NCBI GenBank assembly: GCA_030430495.1 | Contig: JAUIKM010000006.1 | Coordinates: 1-64,000 of the forward strand | Reading direction: 5' to 3' | DNA length: 64,000 nucleotides | From: a bacterium | GTDB taxonomy: Bacteria > Bacteroidota > Ignavibacteria > Kapaibacteriales > UBA7675 | Part shown: positions 42,554 through 54,277 of the stretch, in pieces | Numbering within the stretch: the stretch's first letter is position 1 | Layout: every line of letters begins with the position of its first letter | Translations under genes and position numbers: made by a program | Notes under the pieces: generated by a model | The model's database searches: none | What the model saw: the letters and a program-made list of their open reading frames with translations, nothing else | Told to the model about the DNA's origin: nothing

Positions 42554-44528
42554 TGGAATCCTCCGCTAGATTAAGTATTGCGTGTGTCGTTTGTTTGCAC
42601 AAAATGGGCGTCGCGGTGGACGCGGCTCGCGGCACAACAGCTTCGACAAAAAGAATATTCGATTGGATCTTGCAGCCGCAGCAGTGCTGGGGGCTGAGCG
42701 CTACCCGGAAGTCTTGGCCTGCCGCAAGCCGATAAAATACGGATTTTTTGGCAGCCCCGACGTTGGATTTGCGTGCGGATGCAAAAGCGGTGCGGGTTGA
42801 ATATTCTGGAACGGCGTCCGCACTGCCTGTCTTTGCCCGACTCTTGTTTGTCATCGGGATTGGGGTTCGGGTCTGTCCGGCCGGGCGTTGCTCCGCGCGT
42901 GCATGTTGAAGTGTTTGCCGACCGAACGACTTCCTGGCAGCCGCCGATAATTACCTGACATTCTTGTTTGTCACTGCGTTTTCAGGTTTTGTGTTGCGCG
43001 GTTTGGCGTCGCTTCGCGCTTGAATGTTGCTGTGTTTGCGGCTGAACGACTTGCGGATGACCGTTGACATCTGCTCGATTTTGGATTGTCGCGGCGTTGG
43101 AAGGATTTGAGCAGCGGGGATTGGCGTTGTTTGGCGCGTGCATGTTGAAGTGTTTGCCGACCGAATGACTTCCTGGCCGCCGCCGATAATTACATGATAT
43201 TCTTGTTTGTCACTGCGTTTGCAGGTTTTGTGTTGCGGAGGTTTGGCGTCGCTCCGCGCATGCATGTTGCTGTGTTTGCGGCTGAACGACTTGCGGATGA
43301 CCGTTGACATCTGCTCGATTTTGGATTGTCGCGGCGTTGGAAGGATTTGAGCAGCGGGGATTGGCGTTGTTTGGCGCGTGCATGTTGCTGTGTTTTGGGT
43401 CAGCCGGATTTCCTGAGAGCCGCTGATAATTACCTGACATTCTTGTTTGTCACTGCGCTTGCAGGTTTTGAGCTGCGGAGGTTTGGCGTCGCTTCGCGCT
43501 TGAATGTTGAAGTGTTTTCGGTCAGCTGGATTTCCTGAGAGCCGCTGATAATTACCTGACATTCTTGTTTGTCACTGCGTTTGCAGGTTTTGTGTTGCGG
43601 AGGTTTGGCGTCGCTTCGCGCTTGAATGTTGCTGTGTTTGCGGCTGAACGACTTGCTGGCCGCCGCCGATTTTTACATGACATTCTTGTTTGTCACTGCG
43701 TTTGCAGGTTTTGAGCAGCGGGGTTTGGCGTTGCTTGGCGCGTGCATGTTGTTGTGTTTGCGGCTGAACGACTTGCGGATGACCGTTGACATCTGCTCGA
43801 TTTTGGATTGTCGCGGCGTTGGAATGATTTGAGCAGCGGGGATTGGCGTTGTTTGGCGCGTGCATGTTGCTGTGTTTTCGGTCAGCTGGATTTCCTGAGA
43901 GCCGCCGATAATTACCTGACATTCTTGTTTGTCACTGCGATTGCAGGATTTGAGCAGCGGGGTTTGGCGTTGTTTCGCGCTTGAATGTTGCTGTGGTTGC
44001 GGTCAGCTGGATTTCCACTCAACGCAGTAAAACTGAAATCTCGCCCGCTTGTCCGCGCAGCTTGCCCGTTGACGTTTTTGCGCTTGTGTCGGCGGCGCGG
44101 AGGTGGCATGTTGCACGGGTCGAATCAACCGGAAGGTTCGGCCGCGCCGCGCCTGTGACGTCCCGCTGGAGGGACGGGTATGTGTGAAAAAATTAACCGC
44201 GAATTTTGCGGCCGGGAGGGCTGTGTTCGTTGGTGATGGAGATGAAGAAAAATTGGACGGGTGACGGCGGGGGAGGGGGCCCCATTTTGGGGCCAAATCC
44301 GGCGGCGCGCCAGGTTTGAAGTCTTCGAACTTCAGTTCTCAGTCTTTCAGTTTAACGCGGCGGACGCCGGAATGAGCGAAGCTGACGACGTCAACCCGCG
44401 TTCAGAATGAGTCGCAGTGCCGGATAGCACGCGCCTTCAACCCTGCGCTTTCATCGATGACCAGATCGATTCTAAGTCAATCGTCAAATTGCCTTGAAAT
44501 CGCTTGCCGGTGTTTTAGCGGCATTTGT
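42554..44528. other. Two-kilobase non-coding region dominated by a mosaic repeat array
   Basis: No credible gene. Apparent frames on the minus strand through the array have no family signature and exist because the repeats have periods near a multiple of three. Outside the array, hairpins GTCCCGCTGGAGGGAC (about 44159) and GGCCCC-ATTTT-GGGGCC (about 44277) are present. The promoter of the next gene starts at about 44529. Confidence 0.6.
42820..44010. repeat. Mosaic array of about nine 120-bp repeats of two types
   Basis: Units of about 118-122 bp all end in (C/T)GCATGTTG or TTGAATGTTG. Type B contains ACATTCTTGTTTGTCACTGC; type A contains GACCGTTGACATCTGCTCGA and GATTGTCGCGGCGTTGG. Order from left: B, A, B, A, B, B, B, A, B, with partial units at both ends. 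The three type A units differ by only a few bases over 120 bp. Units share boundaries, as if shuffled by recombination. The array lies between the metalloprotease promoter and the first of two NB-ARC genes. It is not CRISPR: no constant repeat with unique spacers. Confidence 0.85.
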
Positions 44529-44540
44529 TATATTCGGGCA
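44500..44540 (+). promoter_or_regulatory. Putative promoter of the NB-ARC gene at 44591
   Basis: GTTATATTCGG with TATATT at 44529-44534 lies 57 bp before the chosen ATG. The same sequence, with a matching upstream ATTTTG context and AATCGTC(A/G)AATTG at greater distance, stands before the paralogue at 47651. Conservation between the two upstream regions supports a real promoter. Confidence 0.6.
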
Positions 44541-44590
44541 ATCCACAAGATTGCATGGATTCATCGACAACTAAACACCGGAACAACAAG

Positions 44591-47346
44591 ATGGATATAG
44601 GCGCATTGGTCCAGCAGGGCATTGAACTTCTCAAAACAACCGGCCTGATGTTCAAAGACACCGCGGCGGCGGTCGCTCCGCTGATTGGCCCGGGCAAAGC
44701 ACTGTGGAATTGGGCCAGGAGCAAGTTTGCCACGAATAAACCGGCCCTCGAGAAACTTGAGCAGGTCGAGCAGGATCCTGAAAACGAGAGATTGCTCGGC
44801 AAGCTGGAAACTGAGCTGGAACATCACCTGGCCGATGATCCGGCTGCCCAAAGCGAACTAGCCGACCTGATTGCCGACCTGACCGAAGCGATGAAAAACG
44901 CACCTGCGGCAACACACAACTACATGCAGAACAACTCCAGCACCTACGGTCCGATTATCCAGAATTTCAGCGGCGGGACGTTTCACTACAACGTCGATAC
45001 AAAAAAAAAGCCCCCAAAAAACTGACGTCCTTTCCAACAGTTCATCCTGACGATCTGATTGGCCGTGCAGACGAACTGGCCGAGCTTACTTCACTGCTGG
45101 CCGCGAGAAGCGATAGTGTTCTGGTTAACGGCATGGGCGGCATCGGCAAGACCTCGCTGGCAGCGGCTTATGTTGCGCAGGAGTATGATAACTATCAACA
45201 CATTGCCTGGATCAGCAACAACTCCGCCGACATTGCCGACGACTTTGTGCAGAACCGCGATCTGCTGCAAAGTCTTGACCTCACTTCTTTAACCGGCGAC
45301 CGCGAAGTCATTTTTCACGCAATGCTGCACAAACTGCGCTCGATCGACGAACGGCCCAAACTCTTTGTAATTGACAATGCCGATGCTGAAATAGAGCGAC
45401 GCCTGCCGCAATTGCCCTCACAACCCAACTGGCACGTATTGATCACCTCGCGCGAGGAAATAGCCGGTACACATTCAATGCCGCTGGGATTTTTACAGGC
45501 CGAAGATGCGGTGAGGTTGTTTAAAAAACACTGCACGCGAATTAGCTCGGATAATGAGATAACGGCCATCGTTGAAACCGTCGACTACCACACCCTCACA
45601 ATTGAAATTCTGGCGCGCACGGCGCAATTGCAGCGCACGAATCTGAATGACTTGTTAAATGTAATCCGGAACGACGCCCGCGCCAATGTCAAGACGGCGC
45701 ACAGCAATCAGGCGAAGATTGAGCGGGTGCGGTCTTATCTGGAAACAATCTTTGACTTCAGCGGATTAAACGATAATGAACAGTGGTTGTTAAAACAGTT
45801 CGTGGCGCTGCCGCCTGAATTTCAATCTTACGAGTTGCTTGTTGAACTGATTGAACCCGAACAGTCCGATCGCGCCGAGATTTTTTCTGAACTGCTTGAC
45901 AATTTGGCGGGCAAGGGTTGGCTACTGAGCGACCCGAAAAATGACAGTTATAAGATGCATCGGGTTGTGCAGGAGGTCTTTGGCGCAAAGATGAATATAC
46001 AAGCTTCTGATATAAAGCCACTAATTGTTAAAGTAGGAAAGTTGTTGCAGGTTGATCAATCGCTAGACAATCCGGTCGACAAATTTGTTTGGATTCCATA
46101 TGGAGAGGCAGTTACCGCGCTGGTTGGGCAATTTGAAGGTCATAGGATGCAATTCTTGCTGCATAATCTGGGTGTAGTTTTAAAAAGTAAGGGAGAGTAT
46201 CACCGAGCCAGACAACTACTTGAGCGCGCCCGGACATCATTTGAGGAACAGTATGGGGTGGATAACATACAAACGACTACCTGCTGTTCAAACCTGGGGT
46301 TGGTGTTAAAAGACTTGGGCAAATACCAGGAAGCCAAAGTTCTTTTTGAGCATGCACTTGAGACTGACAAGGAGGTTTTAGGCGAGGAACACCAAATTGT
46401 GGGTATTCGCTACACTAATTTGGGACTTGTACTTAAGGACTTTGGAGATTACAAAGGCGCAAGAGTATTACTGGAGCGAGCGCTGGCCATCAACAAGGAA
46501 AAATTCGGCGAGAATCATCATTTGACAGCATCAAGTTATTCTAACCTGGGATTAACCTTGCAATTTCTGGGGGACTATGATGAAGCCAAAGTTCTTCTTG
46601 AACGCGCAGTGGTTTCAAACGTTAAGAACTTTGGATTGCGTCACCCGACGACTACTTCGAGTTATTCCAATTTAGCGTTAGTCTTGCAAGAGTTGGGTGA
46701 TTATGAAAAAGCCATGTTACTGCTCGAGTTCGTTCTAACTCAAGACTCGAAGACTTTTGGCGTGAATCATCCCATAACAGCTATCAGGTATTCAAATCTT
46801 GGAGAATTGCTTCGCAATGTGGGTGATCTGGATAGAGCAAGAAACTTGCTTGAAATTGCACTGGCTTCAACGGAGAACACGCTAGGTGCTGAACATTCAA
46901 CGATGGCCATCAGATACACCAACTTGGGATTGGTGCTTCAAGACCTAGGCGACTACAGTAAGGCGAAAGAATTCCTTGAACTGGCGGTATCAATAAACGA
47001 ACAACTGAATGGCAAAGAACATCCAGACACTGCAACCGCATATTCCAATCTGGGCTGGCTATTGCAAGAATTGGGCGACATCAATGGTGCCAAAGAAAAT
47101 ATCGAGCAAGCTGTAAAGCTCAGTAAAATGTCTTTAGGGAAAGATCATCCGAAGACTGCTGCAAAATTTCTCGGTCTGGCCCGGGTGTTGCTGGATTTCG
47201 GAGAGCTGAAGAGATCTTTGACCTTGGCTTCTCAAGCTTTGAAAGTCTTTGAAAACACGTTACCGAAAGAGCATCCAAACCTGAAGTATGCAAAAGAGGG
47301 AGTCGAACATCTTGAATCTCTGCTGAACGCCCAAACCCAAGAGTGA
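44591..47346 (+). CDS. NB-ARC/TPR conflict protein in two frames, joined by a -1 shift (NLR2)
   Basis: One gene, open as frame 1 from 44591 to a stop at 45023-45025 and continuing in the -1 frame from 45010 to 47346; together about 918 aa. The N-terminal helical domain (MDIGALVQQGIELLKTTGLM) and linker NNSSTYGPIIQNFSGGTF match the paralogue at 47651. The junction is an A AAA AAG heptamer (45004-45010); slipping -1 there gives KK then APKKLTSFPTVHPDDLIG, as in the intact paralogue (PPKKLTSFPTVHPDDLIG). NB-ARC follows (GMGGIGKTS; Walker B LFVIDNADA), then about nine TPRs. Start by homology to the paralogue. Alternatives are homopolymer mutation or sequencing error. The TPR part is AT-richer than the N-terminal part. 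Confidence 0.8.
45001..45021 (+). promoter_or_regulatory. A9-G-C5-A6 homopolymer tract with A AAA AAG slippery heptamer
   Basis: A9 (45001-45009), G, C5, A6. In frame 0 the codons AAA AAG occupy 45005-45010, giving the heptamer A AAA AAG in phase, the same sequence as the E. coli dnaX frameshift site. A -1 slip rejoins the long downstream frame exactly at a conserved sequence, and no nearby codon supplies a natural alternative start for that frame before the Walker A motif. Confidence 0.75.
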
Positions 47347-47650: not shown

Positions 47651-50059
47651 ATGATTGAGCCTGCCAAACTTTTGGACGACGCCGTTAAATTGATCAGTAT
47701 TGCCGCTGCTATTCTGAAGGACAACGCCGCGGCTGTATCACCGCTCAGGGAACCCGCTCAATCCCTCTGGAGCTGGCTTGAAGATCGGTTGTCCGGTGAC
47801 GATGCGGCGCTGGAGCTGCTGCGACAGATCAGACAGGCGCCCGCGAACCCCGAATTAGGGAAGCGCTTAAAGCAGGCCCTGGCACAACATCTTGCCGAAG
47901 ATCATGACAGCCGGGTCCAGCTTGTTAAACAGCTTGGTTATCTTGTTTATCTCACACAGCACGCTTCAGCCGCAACGCACAATCATATGGAGAACAACTC
48001 CAGTATTTATGGTCCGATCATTCAGAATCTCAACGGCGGCACGTTTAACTACTACGTCAACGCAGTTAAACATACGCCGCCCAAAAAACTGACGTCATTT
48101 CCCACGGTTCATCCTGACGACCTGATTGGCCGCACAAAAGACCTGGCCGAACTCACTGCGCTGCTGGCCCGGAACGGAAAAGTGGTCCTGGTTAACGGCA
48201 TGGGCGGCATCGGCAAGACCTCGCTGGCGGCGGCTTATATTGCGCAGGAGTATGACAACTATCAACACATTGCCTGGATTGCGCAAAGCGGCAAAGAATT
48301 CACAAAGGATAAACAAGACGACAAATCCGGCGATGTAGTTGATGCCTTTGTGCAGGATCGCGACTTAATACACAGCCTTGGCTTGCAGGAAATGAGCGGG
48401 AAACGCGAGGAAATCTTTCGCGCGATTCTGCGCGCTCTGCGCTCGATTAACGAACGGCCCAAGCTGCTGGTGATCGACAATGCCGACGCAAGTATTCAAT
48501 CTTACCTGAACGACTTGCCCGCGCCGCCCAACTGGCATGTGTTGTTAACTTCGCGCGAGGAGATCGATGGACCGAAATCTTTTCAACTGGGCTTTCTGGA
48601 AGATGTTGACGCCGTCAAGTTGTTTAAAATACACTGCTCGAGAATCAGCGATGACAAGAAAATCAAGACAATTGTTGAAACAGTCGATTACCACACTCTG
48701 ACCATTGAAATCCTGGCGCGTACGGCACAACGGCATCGAACCACATTTCCAGATCTGTTAAACGCCATAAAGAACAATGTGCGCGCCAATGTTCCCACGA
48801 AGCACAGTGATCTGGCAAGAATTGAACGGGTGCGAACTTATCTGGAGACCATCTTTGATTTCAGTCAATTGGATGAAAACGAGCGCTGGCTGTTAAAACA
48901 GTTCGTGGCTCTTCCGCCCGAGTTTCAATCTTATGAGTTGCTTGTTGAACTGATTGAACCTGAAGAGTCTGACCGCGGTCAGACCTTTTCTGAACTGCTG
49001 GAAAGTCTGGCCGATAAAGGTTGGTTGCTGCGTGATACGGAACGAGAAAAGTACAAAATGCACCGGGTGGTGCGCGAGGCGATCCAGGACAAACTGGAAA
49101 TTGCCCCGCTTGACATTGAGTCGCTGTTAACAAATGTGACGCGCAGACTTTCGGTGGACCAAACAAAGGACAATCCGGTCGATAAGTTTGTTTGGATCCC
49201 TTACGGAGAGGCAGTTGAAACATTGGTCGGGCAGTTTGAAGTTCCAATGGTAAGTCATCTGCAAAACAATCTGGGTTGGGTATTGCAGGATTTTGGAGCA
49301 TATTCCAAAGCAAAGGACTTGCTCGAACGCGCGCTGGCGTCGGATGAGAAAAATTTAGGTGCGGATCATCCGACAACGGCGACCAGTTGTTCGAATCTGG
49401 CTTTGGTGCTGCAAGATTTGGGCGACTACGAGAGTGCGAAGTCCCTGCTAGAACGCTCGCTGGCAACAAACGAAAAGAACCTTGGTGCTGATCATCCAAC
49501 GACGGCAGCCAGTTTTTCCAACTTGGCAGGTGTATTGCAATCTTTGGGCGATTACGCCGGCGCGAAGACCTTGCTCGAACGCGCGCTGGCGTCGGATGAG
49601 AAAAATTTAGGTGCGGATCATCCGACAACGGCGAGCAGTTGTTCGAATCTGGCTTTGGTGCTGCAAGATTTGGGCGAATACGAGAGTGCGAAGTCCTTGC
49701 TTGAACGCGCGCTGGCATCGTCTGAGCAGAATTTGGGTGCTGATCATCCGACGACGGCTGTCAGGTGTTCGAATCTGGCTTCGTTGCTGTTTGTTTTGAG
49801 CGAGTACGACCGAAGCAGGGAATTGACGGAGCGTACGCTGGAGATAGAAGAAAGAGCGTTTGGTACAGACCATCCTTCCACGGCATTAACATTTTCCAAC
49901 CTGGCTGTAGACCTTGAAAAACTCGGTGAGTTCAAAAAAGCCCTGTCTCTGGCCTCCAAAGCGCTGAGTGTATTCGAAAACAAGCTGCCCGCCGGCCACC
50001 CGCACATTGAAATGGCAAAACGACAAATCTCAGATCTGCAAGCCCAAAACCACAAGTAA
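47651..50059 (+). CDS. NB-ARC/TPR conflict protein, intact paralogue (NLR3)
   Basis: 802 aa in one frame. N-terminal helical domain (about 1-105, KLISIAAAILKDNAAAVSPL), linker NNSSIYGPIIQNLNGGTFNY, NB-ARC with Walker A GMGGIGKTS at 183-191 and Walker B LLVIDNADA, a winged-helix region (DFSQLDENERWLLKQFVALP), then about seven TPRs ending in MAKRQISDLQAQN. The TPRs are of the NLGADHPTTA kind and two 126-bp units are almost identical at the DNA level. It is a STAND ATPase, probably an anti-phage sensor; no effector enzyme is fused, so the N-terminal domain may recruit one. It has a 13-residue insertion after the Walker A region that NLR2 lacks. Confidence 0.88.
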   Translation: MIEPAKLLDDAVKLISIAAAILKDNAAAVSPLREPAQSLWSWLEDRLSGDDAALELLRQIRQAPANPELGKRLKQALAQHLAEDHDSRVQLVKQLGYLVYLTQHASAATHNHMENNSSIYGPIIQNLNGGTFNYYVNAVKHTPPKKLTSFPTVHPDDLIGRTKDLAELTALLARNGKVVLVNGMGGIGKTSLAAAYIAQEYDNYQHIAWIAQSGKEFTKDKQDDKSGDVVDAFVQDRDLIHSLGLQEMSGKREEIFRAILRALRSINERPKLLVIDNADASIQSYLNDLPAPPNWHVLLTSREEIDGPKSFQLGFLEDVDAVKLFKIHCSRISDDKKIKTIVETVDYHTLTIEILARTAQRHRTTFPDLLNAIKNNVRANVPTKHSDLARIERVRTYLETIFDFSQLDENERWLLKQFVALPPEFQSYELLVELIEPEESDRGQTFSELLESLADKGWLLRDTEREKYKMHRVVREAIQDKLEIAPLDIESLLTNVTRRLSVDQTKDNPVDKFVWIPYGEAVETLVGQFEVPMVSHLQNNLGWVLQDFGAYSKAKDLLERALASDEKNLGADHPTTATSCSNLALVLQDLGDYESAKSLLERSLATNEKNLGADHPTTAASFSNLAGVLQSLGDYAGAKTLLERALASDEKNLGADHPTTASSCSNLALVLQDLGEYESAKSLLERALASSEQNLGADHPTTAVRCSNLASLLFVLSEYDRSRELTERTLEIEERAFGTDHPSTALTFSNLAVDLEKLGEFKKALSLASKALSVFENKLPAGHPHIEMAKRQISDLQAQNHK

Positions 50060-50233: not shown

Positions 50234-50319
50234 CGGGTTTGCGGCTTGAAACTCAAGGACGCGGCTTGAAACTCGACGCTTTGGCTGAAAAATCGTGGAA
50301 TTCCGGCCCGGTTGTTGCG

Positions 50320-50605
50320 CTCGACGCTCCGCACAACTCCAAACCCGTCACATGCCGACTTGAGACTCCGCTCGAAACTCGAAACAACTCCAAACCCGTT
50401 ACATGCCGACTCGAGACTCCGCTCGAAACTCGAAACAACTCCAAACCCGTTACATGCCGACTTGAGACTCCGCTCGACGCTCCGCACAACTGAAAACCCG
50501 TCACATGCCGACTTGAGACTCCGCTCGACGCTCCGCACAACTGAAAACCCGTCACATGCCGACTTGAGACTCCGCTCGACGCTCCGCACAACTCCAAACC
50601 CGCCG
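50320..50605. repeat. 51-bp tandem repeat array, about 5.6 copies
   Basis: Units start at 50320, 50371, 50422, 50473, 50524 and 50575 (partial). Each contains CAACT(C/G)(C/A)AAACCCGT(C/T)ACATG and GA(C/G)ACTCCGCTCGA. Copies 2 and 3 share AAACTCGAAA in place of GACGCTCCGC. The 51-bp period is 17 codons, so frames stay open on both strands without implying a gene. The region has no other feature up to the start of the Clp-like gene at 50882. Confidence 0.9.
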
Positions 50606-50881: not shown

Positions 50882-53800
50882 ATGGATTTCAGCAGTATTT
50901 TTGCGTTTGTTCTGAGTACGGCCCTGTTGAGCGGGCTCCTCTATCTCCTGTATCGCCGCGGTATGTTAAAAATATCCGTCGGCGCGCTCGACGATACAAT
51001 CAAACCCGCCGCGCCGCCCGACGTGTATACACACGCCGCCAACTTAAACAACTTCTGGAGCCAACAGCCGCCGCTGGCCGATCTGCGCCGCAACGCCGAC
51101 TACAAAGCCGGCGTTGAACTGCTGTTAAAACAACAGCGCAACCCCGAAGAACTGGGCGAATACCTGGAAGGCGATAACGCCATCGCCGCGTGCATGGCCG
51201 CCGATGCGCTGCTGCAACTTAAACACAACCACGCCATCGCGTCGCTGTTAATGGTCCTGCGGGAATGGGATGCAGCCGTCCTGCGCGTCCTGCTGGACGT
51301 CATCGACAAACTGGCGGAAAAACAGGCCGTGGCATGGCGCGTGCTGGTGGCGATGACCGAATGCGACTACGGCGACAAAGAAGTTCGCCTGCTGCGCGCT
51401 TTTTTGTTAACGCGCAAGGCCAAAGGCGACAGCCTCTCCACCGACGACGTAGTGGACGGCATGGATTTTTCCACGCGCGCCTCGGTGATGATGCTGCTGC
51501 GCCAACTGGAGATCGAAGAACTCGAGCCGCTCGCGGATGCACTTACTCCGCCGCCGCAACCCAATACCGACCTCGATGAACTGGAAGAATTTGCCACGGT
51601 GCGCCGCCCGACGGACGCCGTGGAAGATGTTAACAGACATCTGATTGAACACCGCGCGCTCACGCAAACCGCGCAGAAAATTGAACAGGGTTTCAGCGCC
51701 GATGCGTCGCGCTCCGCCGTCGTGGTGGGTGAACCTGGCGTGGGTAAAAGTTCGCTCGTGGCGATTATCGAACGCCGTTTGTTAAGTAAAGGCTGGACCG
51801 TCGTGCGCGCCTCCGCGGCGCATATCATGTCCGGCCAGAAGTACATCGGCGAGCTGGAGCAGCGCACGCTGCAACTGGTTGAGTCGCTGTGTGAAGCCGA
51901 AAACGTGCTGTGGATCATCGACAATATCCACGAGCTCTCGCTGGCGGGTAAACATCAGTTTTCCTCCTTTTCGATTCTCGACACGATCCTGCCCTACGTC
52001 GAACGCGGCGAACTTAACGTGCTGGGCGAGACGTCTTCGCGCGCCTGGGAACGCCTCGTGACCTCGCGTCCGCTGGTGCGCAGCGCCTTCGACGTGCACC
52101 GCGTGGAAGCGACGAACGAAAGCCAGACGCTCGATATTGTTAAAACCTGGGTGCGCGCTTATTCGCGCGGACGGCGCGACGCATTGTTAAGCGATAAAAC
52201 GATTGCCGAGGCGATGGAACTGTCGAATCAGTTCCTCAACCGCGACGCCGCGCCCGGCAATATCCTGCGTTTTCTGGACGTGACGCGCAGCGCCGTGGAA
52301 GCCGCCACGCCGGGTAAACAACGCGCCATAAACGCAGAAGATCTGATCGGCACGCTGTCCCAGGTGACCGGCCTGCCGCGCACAATCCTGGATGACCGCG
52401 CCGAACTCAACCTGGACGAACTGCGCGCCTTTTTTAACGAGCGCGTCTTCGGGCAGGAAGAAGCCGTCGACTGCCTGGTGGATCGCGTGGCGATGATCAA
52501 AGCCGGTTTAACCGATCCGACGCGGCCGCTCGGCGTCTTTCTCTTTGTCGGTCCGACGGGGACGGGCAAGACCGAGATCGCCAAGTCGCTGGCGCAATTC
52601 CTGTTTGGATCCGCCGAGCGCATGATCCGCCTGGACATGAGCGAGTTCGGCACACCCGAGTCGCTCGGCCGCCTGATGGGCGACAGCCGCGAGATAAGCG
52701 AAAACGTGTCGCTGACGCACGAAATCCGACAGCAGCCATTCAGTGTTGTGTTACTGGACGAATTTGAAAAAGCCGCGCCGGCGGTGTGGGACCTCTTTCT
52801 GCAGGTGTTCGATGACGGGCGTTTAACCGACCGCGGCGGCAGCACGGCGGACTTCCGCCACAGCATTATTATCATGACGTCCAATCTGGGCGCGGCCGGA
52901 GCGCGCGCGCGCATCGGTTTTGACCAGACGGCGGAAGACTTTGAGGCGGGGCGCGTGGAAGACGTCGTCGGACAGGTGTTCCGGCGCGAGTTTGTCAACC
53001 GCATCGACCGCGTGGTGGTGTTTCATCCGCTTAAACGCGAGATCATGCGCGACCTGCTGCACAAGGAACTGCACGCCGTGCTCAAACGCCGCGGCCTGCG
53101 TTCGCGCACCTGGGCGGTGGAGTGGGACGAATCCGCGATTAACTTTTTGCTGGAGCGCGGCTATACGGCCGACCTGGGCGCGCGTCCGCTTAAACGCGCC
53201 ATTGAGCGTTATCTGCTCTCGCCCTTGGCCAAAACGATCGTGGCGAACCAGTTCCCGGACGGCGATCAGTTTCTGCACGTGCGCGCCGCCAAAAACGACA
53301 AGTCGCTCGAAGTTGAATTCATCGACCCGGATCAGGACGCCGGCTCGCGCCAGGGCGAACTGTTCCCGTCATTTGAAGATCGCGCCGCGGACGACGGCAC
53401 CGAGCCGCGTACGCGCGACATGGTGATGGACGCACGCGGCACCGTCGCCGAAGTGGCGCACCTCTCCCTGAAAGTCTCCGAGCTCGACAGCCGCATCACG
53501 GCCCCCGAGTGGGAAGAAGCCAAGGAACGCGCACTGGCCGACGCCTCTTCGCCGGAGTTCTGGGAGTCCGAAGAGCGCTTTGAGGTGCTCGCCCGCGCCG
53601 AGTACATGGACCGCGTGGAAGAGGCGATGCGCACCGCGCGCCGTCTGCTGGAAAAACTGGCCGAAGAAGTCGAGGAGGGCAGCTACCCGCCGCGCCTGGT
53701 GCAGCGGCTGGCGCAGCAGGTCTACCTGCTCGGTCTGGCGCTCGACTGCCTGGAATGCGGCGAAGAACAGGACGCCTTTGTGCAGGTCGAAGCCGTGCGC

Positions 53801-54277
53801 GAGGGCGCCAAGCGCGCCGACGCCAACAATGAATTCGCCATGCGCATCGCCAAGATGTACTGGAATTGGGCAAAAAAACGCAATATGCGCATCGACGTGC
53901 TGGAGGAAGTCGGCGGCGAGGGCCGCGAGCCTTTCCGGCTGCTGATGGCCGTCTCCGGCTTCGGTGCGCTGCACATCCTGCGCCTGGAGCGCGGCCTGCA
54001 CGCCTTTGAACTGAACGGCGAAAAACGCAACGCCGAGCGTTCGATGGTGCGCGTGCGCGTCATGCCGCAGCCACTCGTGCAGAACGCACCCGATTACGAC
54101 GCACTGGCCGCCGCGCGCGCCGCGCTGGAGCAGGAAGACGACAAGGCCGCCAAAATTATCCGGCGCTACCAGAAAGAACCCACGCCGCTTGTGCGCGACG
54201 TGGAACGCAAGTGGCGCTCCGGCCGCCTGGACCGCGTGCTGGACGGCGAGTTCGACGTGATCGGCGCCGGGTCCTGA
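50882..54277 (+). CDS. Membrane-anchored Clp/Hsp100-type AAA+ ATPase fused to an RF2-like PCRF region
   Basis: 1,131 aa. An N-terminal membrane anchor (IFAFVLSTALLSGLLYLLY, residues 5-24) and a helical repeat-like region precede two AAA+ domains. D1: Walker A GEPGVGKSS 283-291, pore loop KYIGE at 320, Walker B WIIDNIHEL with Asn348 instead of the catalytic Glu. D2: Walker A GPTGTGKTE at 557, Walker B LLDEFEKA at 626-627 intact, no aromatic GYVG pore loop, and an IGF tripeptide (678-680) where ClpA keeps its ClpP-docking IGL. Residues 855-1075 resemble release factor 2 domain 1 plus PCRF (SSPEFWESEERFEVLA; MYWNWAKKRNMRIDVLEEVG; HILRLERGLHAFEL), without the GGQ catalytic domain. Probable unfoldase at the membrane or ribosome; function unknown. 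A clpP gene is not adjacent. Confidence 0.85.
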   Translation: MDFSSIFAFVLSTALLSGLLYLLYRRGMLKISVGALDDTIKPAAPPDVYTHAANLNNFWSQQPPLADLRRNADYKAGVELLLKQQRNPEELGEYLEGDNAIAACMAADALLQLKHNHAIASLLMVLREWDAAVLRVLLDVIDKLAEKQAVAWRVLVAMTECDYGDKEVRLLRAFLLTRKAKGDSLSTDDVVDGMDFSTRASVMMLLRQLEIEELEPLADALTPPPQPNTDLDELEEFATVRRPTDAVEDVNRHLIEHRALTQTAQKIEQGFSADASRSAVVVGEPGVGKSSLVAIIERRLLSKGWTVVRASAAHIMSGQKYIGELEQRTLQLVESLCEAENVLWIIDNIHELSLAGKHQFSSFSILDTILPYVERGELNVLGETSSRAWERLVTSRPLVRSAFDVHRVEATNESQTLDIVKTWVRAYSRGRRDALLSDKTIAEAMELSNQFLNRDAAPGNILRFLDVTRSAVEAATPGKQRAINAEDLIGTLSQVTGLPRTILDDRAELNLDELRAFFNERVFGQEEAVDCLVDRVAMIKAGLTDPTRPLGVFLFVGPTGTGKTEIAKSLAQFLFGSAERMIRLDMSEFGTPESLGRLMGDSREISENVSLTHEIRQQPFSVVLLDEFEKAAPAVWDLFLQVFDDGRLTDRGGSTADFRHSIIIMTSNLGAAGARARIGFDQTAEDFEAGRVEDVVGQVFRREFVNRIDRVVVFHPLKREIMRDLLHKELHAVLKRRGLRSRTWAVEWDESAINFLLERGYTADLGARPLKRAIERYLLSPLAKTIVANQFPDGDQFLHVRAAKNDKSLEVEFIDPDQDAGSRQGELFPSFEDRAADDGTEPRTRDMVMDARGTVAEVAHLSLKVSELDSRITAPEWEEAKERALADASSPEFWESEERFEVLARAEYMDRVEEAMRTARRLLEKLAEEVEEGSYPPRLVQRLAQQVYLLGLALDCLECGEEQDAFVQVEAVREGAKRADANNEFAMRIAKMYWNWAKKRNMRIDVLEEVGGEGREPFRLLMAVSGFGALHILRLERGLHAFELNGEKRNAERSMVRVRVMPQPLVQNAPDYDALAAARAALEQEDDKAAKIIRRYQKEPTPLVRDVERKWRSGRLDRVLDGEFDVIGAGS

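Follow-up and report, generated by a model that had tools for sequence, protein, structure and literature searches.

What kind of protein is encoded by a gene in which a Clp-type ATPase runs on into a sequence resembling the peptide release factor RF2, and does such a fusion connect protein degradation with translation? The question is raised by a locus in the 64,000-nucleotide stretch of DNA analysed here (the window), which comes from a bacterium of the order Kapaibacteriales. The assembly comprises 80 contigs and 5.6 Mb, and the gene sits on contig C73:

50882–54277, + strand: whole gene, a membrane-anchored two-ring Clp ATPase with an RF2-derived tail (ATG start, 1131 amino acids)

Its DNA is single-copy in the genome; beyond it, only part of a Clp gene on contig C71 matched, over a short stretch. 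A preliminary description of this gene listed a membrane helix, two AAA+ modules (D1 and D2), an IGF tripeptide, a region like RF2 domain 1 and PCRF, and the lack of a GGQ motif, and all of these elements are present. To them can be added an RF2 domain 4, the loss of the RF2 elements SPF, HTS and Trp319, and the loss of the D2 pore-1 loop motif GYVG.

Pfam assigns AAA to residues 280-378 of the protein, AAA_2 to 548-710, ClpB_D2-small to 717-796 and PCRF to 897-1040. The second AAA+ module matches PF07724 (1.1e-43) and PF10431 (5.9e-15), and tandem AAA+ modules with AAA_2 and ClpB_D2-small were found in 6 of 6 family members scanned. The PCRF match (PF03462, E 1.2e-6) is modest for a single sequence, at 28.9 bits against a curated cut-off of 24, as might be expected if the resemblance arose by chance or the gene were a misassembled Clp-prfB chimera. 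That reading is refuted by independent homologues and has almost no probability left: the fusion is uninterrupted in ten genomes, PCRF is matched in all six members scanned, and ordinary, separate RF1 (prfA) and RF2 (prfB) genes exist in all four carrier genomes checked.

The family consists of ten distinct full-length proteins, the window's included, which have an identical architecture and come from two bacterial groups. A scan of GTDB contigs recovered the fusion in two Pelagibius metagenome-assembled genomes, and whole-genome searches added G002 from the family to which the window belongs, G277 from a different family of that phylum and five Pseudomonadota (G670, G723, G725, G887 and G1114); G751 is the same record as the Pelagibius locus L004 and was counted once among the ten. 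Carriers are rare: sampling found 2 among 296 genomes of the window's phylum and, on the Pelagibius side, 4 among 61 genomes of its order and 2 among 385 of its class. In a tree of D2 sequences, nine family members form one clade with 100/100 support, separated by 2.13 changes per site from ClpA, ClpB and ClpC, and the tails retain 35-56% identity among distant bacteria. Genome G1272 holds a 136-residue open reading frame (L151, 7184-7591, - strand) in which a D1 fragment is joined directly to an RF2-type tail; it looks like a copy of the gene that has decayed or undergone internal deletion.

The N-terminal part of the protein contains two features:

50894–50950, + strand: N-terminal membrane helix, residues 5-23 (hydropathy; a helix is predicted in every homologue)
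51014–51646, + strand: N-domain, residues 45-255, all helical and acidic (secondary structure; weak HEAT/alphaRep-like similarity)

The hydrophobic segment at residues 5-23 (mean Kyte-Doolittle value 2.09) is followed by YRRGMLK, and basic residues follow the helix in most family members, so the positive-inside rule suggests that the AAA+ rings are cytoplasmic. The anchor proposed in the preliminary description is thus predicted across the whole family. No Clp N-domain was matched among the Pfam families listed, and residues 45-255 look HEAT-like instead; the helicity of this domain was read as secondary structure alone from a full-length AlphaFold model with a pLDDT of 46.6.

The two rings that follow have the features below:

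51653–52381, + strand: D1 AAA+ module, residues 258-500 (alignment; against ClpA/ClpB/ClpC, Walker A is retained and Walker B, sensor 1 and Arg fingers differ)
51839–51853, + strand: D1 pore-1 loop KYIGE with Tyr321 (alignment; [KSIV]Y[IV]G[EQ] throughout the family)
51911–51934, + strand: degenerate D1 Walker B, WIIDNIHE (alignment)
52394–53326, + strand: D2 AAA+ module with D2-small domain, residues 505-815 (Pfam and alignment)
52679–52711, + strand: site of the missing D2 pore-1 loop, where approximately DSREISENVSL replaces the stretch bearing GYVG (alignment)
52913–52921, + strand: IGF tripeptide, residues 678-680, at the position of the ClpP-docking loop (alignment)

D1 has a Walker A of GEPGVGKS, and alignment with E. 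coli ClpA and ClpB bears out both the pore tyrosine, Tyr321, and the substitution of Asn for the Walker B Glu that had been noticed earlier: the window protein reads IIDNIHE where ClpA and ClpB have FIDEIHT or FIDELHT. Other members carry Pro, Gln or His in place of the Asp, so that the canonical D1 Walker B is altered in 10 of 10 members, and the Arg-finger region is altered in the six that were aligned first. Judged against E. coli ClpA and ClpB and the genome's own ClpC, sensor 1 and the Arg-finger pair are likewise non-canonical. The catalytically competent D1 that marks class I Hsp100/Clp proteins, with its Walker B Asp-Glu and Arg fingers, is absent, and D1 is probably catalytically dead.

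D2 keeps Walker A, Walker B, sensor 1, the Arg finger and sensor 2, and its Walker motifs (GPTGTGKT and LLDEFE) are intact, as first described. What it lacks is GYVG, which is absent in all ten members with a gap of 3-4 residues, and is present in E. coli ClpA and ClpB and in 19 of 19 Clp proteins compared from the window's order, its own ClpC included. In ClpA the GYVG loop and its tyrosine contact substrate, and D2 is the principal motor with D1 as an auxiliary (PMC9663308). The missing D2 pore loop therefore argues against standard ClpA-like threading, and a simple form of it is further disfavoured by a D1 without canonical Walker B and Arg-finger residues. Since D2 would be expected to hydrolyse ATP without a gripping loop and D1 has a gripping tyrosine but probably no catalysis, a coupled action in which D2 drives the D1 pore loops is possible.

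The suggestion that this motor engages ClpP gains from the alignment of IGF 678-680 with the IGL of E. coli ClpA, at a place where ClpB has no such motif. IGF-type loops dock in hydrophobic sites of ClpP (PMC9035409). The tripeptide is [ILP]GF throughout the family, being IGF or LGF in 8 of 10 members and PGF in 2, and G679-F680 is invariant while neighbouring loop positions vary. From these alignments, docking to ClpP is plausible, and ClpP genes were present in 8 of 8 carrier genomes searched. The alternative is a remodelling ATPase that works without ClpP, as ClpB or ClpV does, on membrane-bound clients, the GF tripeptide having another role; the loss of the D2 GYVG, the changed catalytic residues of D1, the PGF of two members and the lack of linkage to clpP are all consistent with it. 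It does not explain why G679-F680 is invariant exactly at the docking position of ClpA and ClpC, from which it is absent in ClpB, or why IGF or LGF is found in eight members. Such non-threading remodelling is unlikely, and still a serious rival.

Two full-length ClpP proteins are encoded by each of the first five carrier genomes; in a sample of 39 other genomes from the order, 8 have two. The second ClpP was rejected as a dedicated partner on the grounds that the carriers G723 and G725 have one ClpP only. In G000 (L053, contig C59), G002 (L055) and G670 (L054), the second ClpP is divergent and has an SGDT[IV]HD motif.

The C-terminal part of the protein, residues 815-1131, is the RF2-like tail, and no peptidase family was found among the Pfam and NCBIfam matches listed for the protein. 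The tail is composed as follows:

53444–53755, + strand: RF2 domain 1-like region, residues 855-958 (NCBIfam, profile-profile comparison, Foldseek, profile against PDB)
53759–54079, + strand: core of RF2 domain 2 (PCRF, codon recognition), residues 960-1066, with SPF and HTS lost (Pfam, Foldseek, profile against PDB)
54080–54133, + strand: short connector replacing the GGQ domain 3 (GVH-to-IRSYV spacing)
54134–54265, + strand: RF2 domain 4-like tail, residues 1085-1128, RRY...PTPLVRD...WRSGRLDRVLDGEFD (profile ranking, alignment)

Several lines of comparison agree with Pfam on the likeness to RF2 domain 1 and PCRF. The NCBIfam prfB model matches residues 861-1040 (E 1.8e-9) with 37 bits, far under the cut-off of 370 for a true RF2. 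A family profile built from six tails gave 41 matches at E<=0.01 against all PDB sequences, all of them RF1 or RF2 and the best at 7e-14, and profile-profile comparison returned RF2 with a probability of 97.5% (E 5.6e-12) and RF1 with 90% (1.4e-6). In a structure model of the tail, which was built from three sequences and has a pLDDT of 68 with low confidence in its last ~60 residues, 24 of 24 Foldseek matches to PDB entries at E<=1e-3 were RF1/RF2-type release factors, so the PCRF likeness extends to structure; RF2 ranked highest among these matches, and the alignment of the model to unbound E. coli RF2 (1gqe) spans 221 residues with a Z score of 12.9. NCBIfam equivalog scores for the Clp part are also under curated cut-offs (336 bits against 1232 for ClpB, 316 against 993 for ClpA). 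The protein is neither ClpA, ClpB nor RF2, the defining features of each having been found wanting when tested.

RF2 domain 4 corresponds to the last ~45 residues of the protein and is the most conserved part of the RF2-derived tail. When 1157 open reading frames were ranked with a profile of these last residues, three RF2s came first after the family members (E 0.0012, 0.014 and 0.11), and the profile aligned to the RF2 C-terminus along IRSYV...DHRT...VMDGELD. Between the GVH/GLH motif and the IRSYV element, RF2 has 126-133 residues, compared with 44-57 in the Clp-RF2 family, a range that leaves out the value of 250 for G887, which came from a false GLH match. The GGQ motif is absent, as had been noted, and about 70-80 residues are missing from the RF2 body. 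Because domain 4 is also present, the alignments indicate that the inserted GGQ domain has been excised from the codon-recognition superdomain.

Core residues that do not vary among the RF2s compared have been kept (W47, M151-Y152, W155, G185, A188, G197, H199, R324, Y326, D335 and G351), and SPF, the HTS stretch, the tip of the GGTEA helix and the switch loop with Trp319 have been lost in all members aligned. Since SPF, HTS, Trp319 and the GGQ domain are gone, the tail is not expected to read stop codons as RF2 does or to release peptides, and the earlier idea that ribosomes are recognised is not supported insofar as it relied on RF2's codon chemistry. In RF2, Trp319 stacks on A1492 and is the contact of ArfA, and domain 1 binds the L11 stalk (PMC5378476). 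Because the residues with which RF2 contacts ribosome and codon have been lost, homology by itself does not imply that the tail docks on the ribosome.

The tail may have no present connection with the ribosome and may serve as a generic protein- or RNA-binding domain, an adaptor or regulator of a membrane Clp protease. This is quite possible, if short of probable, given that all the codon-reading residues are lost with the fold core kept and that the most conserved stretch is specific to the family (R1095, P1100, P1102, W1111, R1112, G1114 and R1115). A precedent exists in PrfB3 of plant plastids, an RF2 relative without SPF and GGQ that has taken on a new role and binds the petB 3' UTR (PMC5897788); PrfB3 differs in being a free-standing RNA-stabilising protein for which no AAA+ motor or membrane anchor is known. 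Against a generic function stands the retention of domain 1 together with the domain 2/4 core, which is expected if the RF2-shaped body is itself used.

The genomic surroundings of the gene were also compared. No conserved neighbour was found among carriers, none pointed to translation or proteolysis, and there was no linkage to clpP. An Atg22-like MFS gene lies near the gene in the two carriers that belong to the same family and an HtrA-like gene in another carrier. In Pelagibius (L003, 6072-7759; L004, 6139-7757) fdhD- and mobA-like genes precede the gene, all in one orientation; from their sequences we take them to be formate dehydrogenase and molybdenum cofactor genes, and the other carriers are without such a context. 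Within this family of genomes (G000 contig C71, L043 and L031; G002 contig C36), prfB and clpC are near one another and point in divergent directions, an intriguing arrangement beside a Clp-RF2 fusion, but one whose orientation does not favour simple fusion. Within the window, a 51-bp tandem repeat (5.6 copies, 92% matches, 50318-50602) lies about 280 bp upstream of the gene. Farther upstream are tandem STAND paralogues (NB-ARC and TPR), the first of which is split into two frames (44525-45025 and 45133-47346, + strand) at an A9 run near 45000-45008, owing to a frameshift mutation, an assembly error or a slippage site; the second copy (47651-50059) is intact.

A mobile or phage origin of the gene was considered and rejected, a plasmid search having given no match and a phage search one weak match. 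A known anti-phage defence system was likewise rejected, PADLOC matches being at the generic AAA+ level only.

Comparison with known systems helps to place the protein. It shares with ClpA and ClpC two AAA+ rings, a D2 motor with D2-small, a ClpP tripeptide loop and the D1 pore tyrosine, and with ClpA the lack of an M-domain; unlike them, it has a membrane anchor, degenerate D1 catalysis, an RF2-derived tail and no D2 GYVG, and it forms a separate clade with a branch of 2.13. The tail has domain 1, the domain 2 core and domain 4 in the order of RF2 (prfB), but is without the GGQ domain 3, SPF, HTS, Trp319 and GGTEA and is fused behind an AAA+ motor. Like FtsH and other membrane-anchored AAA+ proteases, the protein has an N-terminal anchor (here predicted from hydropathy) followed by a motor that would face the cytoplasm; in contrast to FtsH, its tandem rings are of the Clp type and no built-in peptidase is seen, so ClpP would be needed. 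RF-H, encoded in an operon and an unusual bacterial class-I release factor paralogue, resembles the tail in its altered recognition and differs in being described as a release factor (PMC1586002). RF-H is not known to be fused to a Clp ATPase or to lack a GGQ domain.

Sequence and structure comparison establish the domain identities, the features kept and lost, and the common descent and conservation of the fusion. The best single account of them, which we hold tentatively, is a membrane-tethered, probably ClpP-linked two-ring ATPase whose RF2-derived head docks the motor to a translation-related partner; the hexamer, the docking to ClpP, the tail as docking head and the ribosome as partner are the parts that we infer. 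The protein would be a hexameric Clp/Hsp100 ATPase of its own clade, in which D1 would form a non-hydrolysing ring that keeps its pore tyrosine, and D2 an ATPase motor without the GYVG gripping loop whose [IL]GF tripeptide would dock ClpP. The C-terminal head, an RF2 scaffold of domain 1 and domains 2-4, would serve as a docking module that holds the motor near the membrane on the ribosome, perhaps via the L11 stalk, or on a factor that normally meets RF2, and ATP hydrolysis by D2 would then remodel the held client or hand it to ClpP. Against this docking account count the PGF of two members, the lack of a neighbour related to translation or proteolysis and a second ClpP that does not track the gene. 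A more specific proposal, a membrane-bound ribosome quality-control protease whose dead RF2 head docks on stalled, membrane-engaged ribosomes at the A site or L11 stalk and delivers to ClpP either the nascent chain or a factor bound there, without tmRNA tagging, is improbable. The preliminary interpretation is supported as to the membrane anchor, the predicted cytoplasmic rings, the conserved tripeptide of ClpP-docking type and a real RF2-derived module, and is not supported as to RF2 codon chemistry and simple ClpA-like threading.

No paper on a Clp-RF2 fusion was found in the open-access literature searched, and a review of release-factor evolution never mentions Clp or PCRF (PMC6514570). 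What is new, as far as checked, is the way in which known parts are combined, an RF2 body of whose domains only the GGQ domain is missing, and a divided motor. The fusion offers a clear evolutionary case in which the inserted GGQ domain was excised and the codon-recognition superdomain was left as a putative docking module on an ATPase. With a gripping tyrosine in a probably dead D1 and hydrolysis left to a D2 that lacks its loop, the rings divide the labour in a way that lends itself to testing how far two-ring motors depend on D2 pore loops. Proteolysis of stalled nascent chains in bacteria works via tags added to the chain, such as SsrA and Ala tails. A Clp motor whose own head is shaped like a release factor suggests that translation is directly and physically coupled to a membrane-tethered protease, and in these bacteria the Clp-RF2 protein may connect the machinery of translation with protein degradation and with the membrane.
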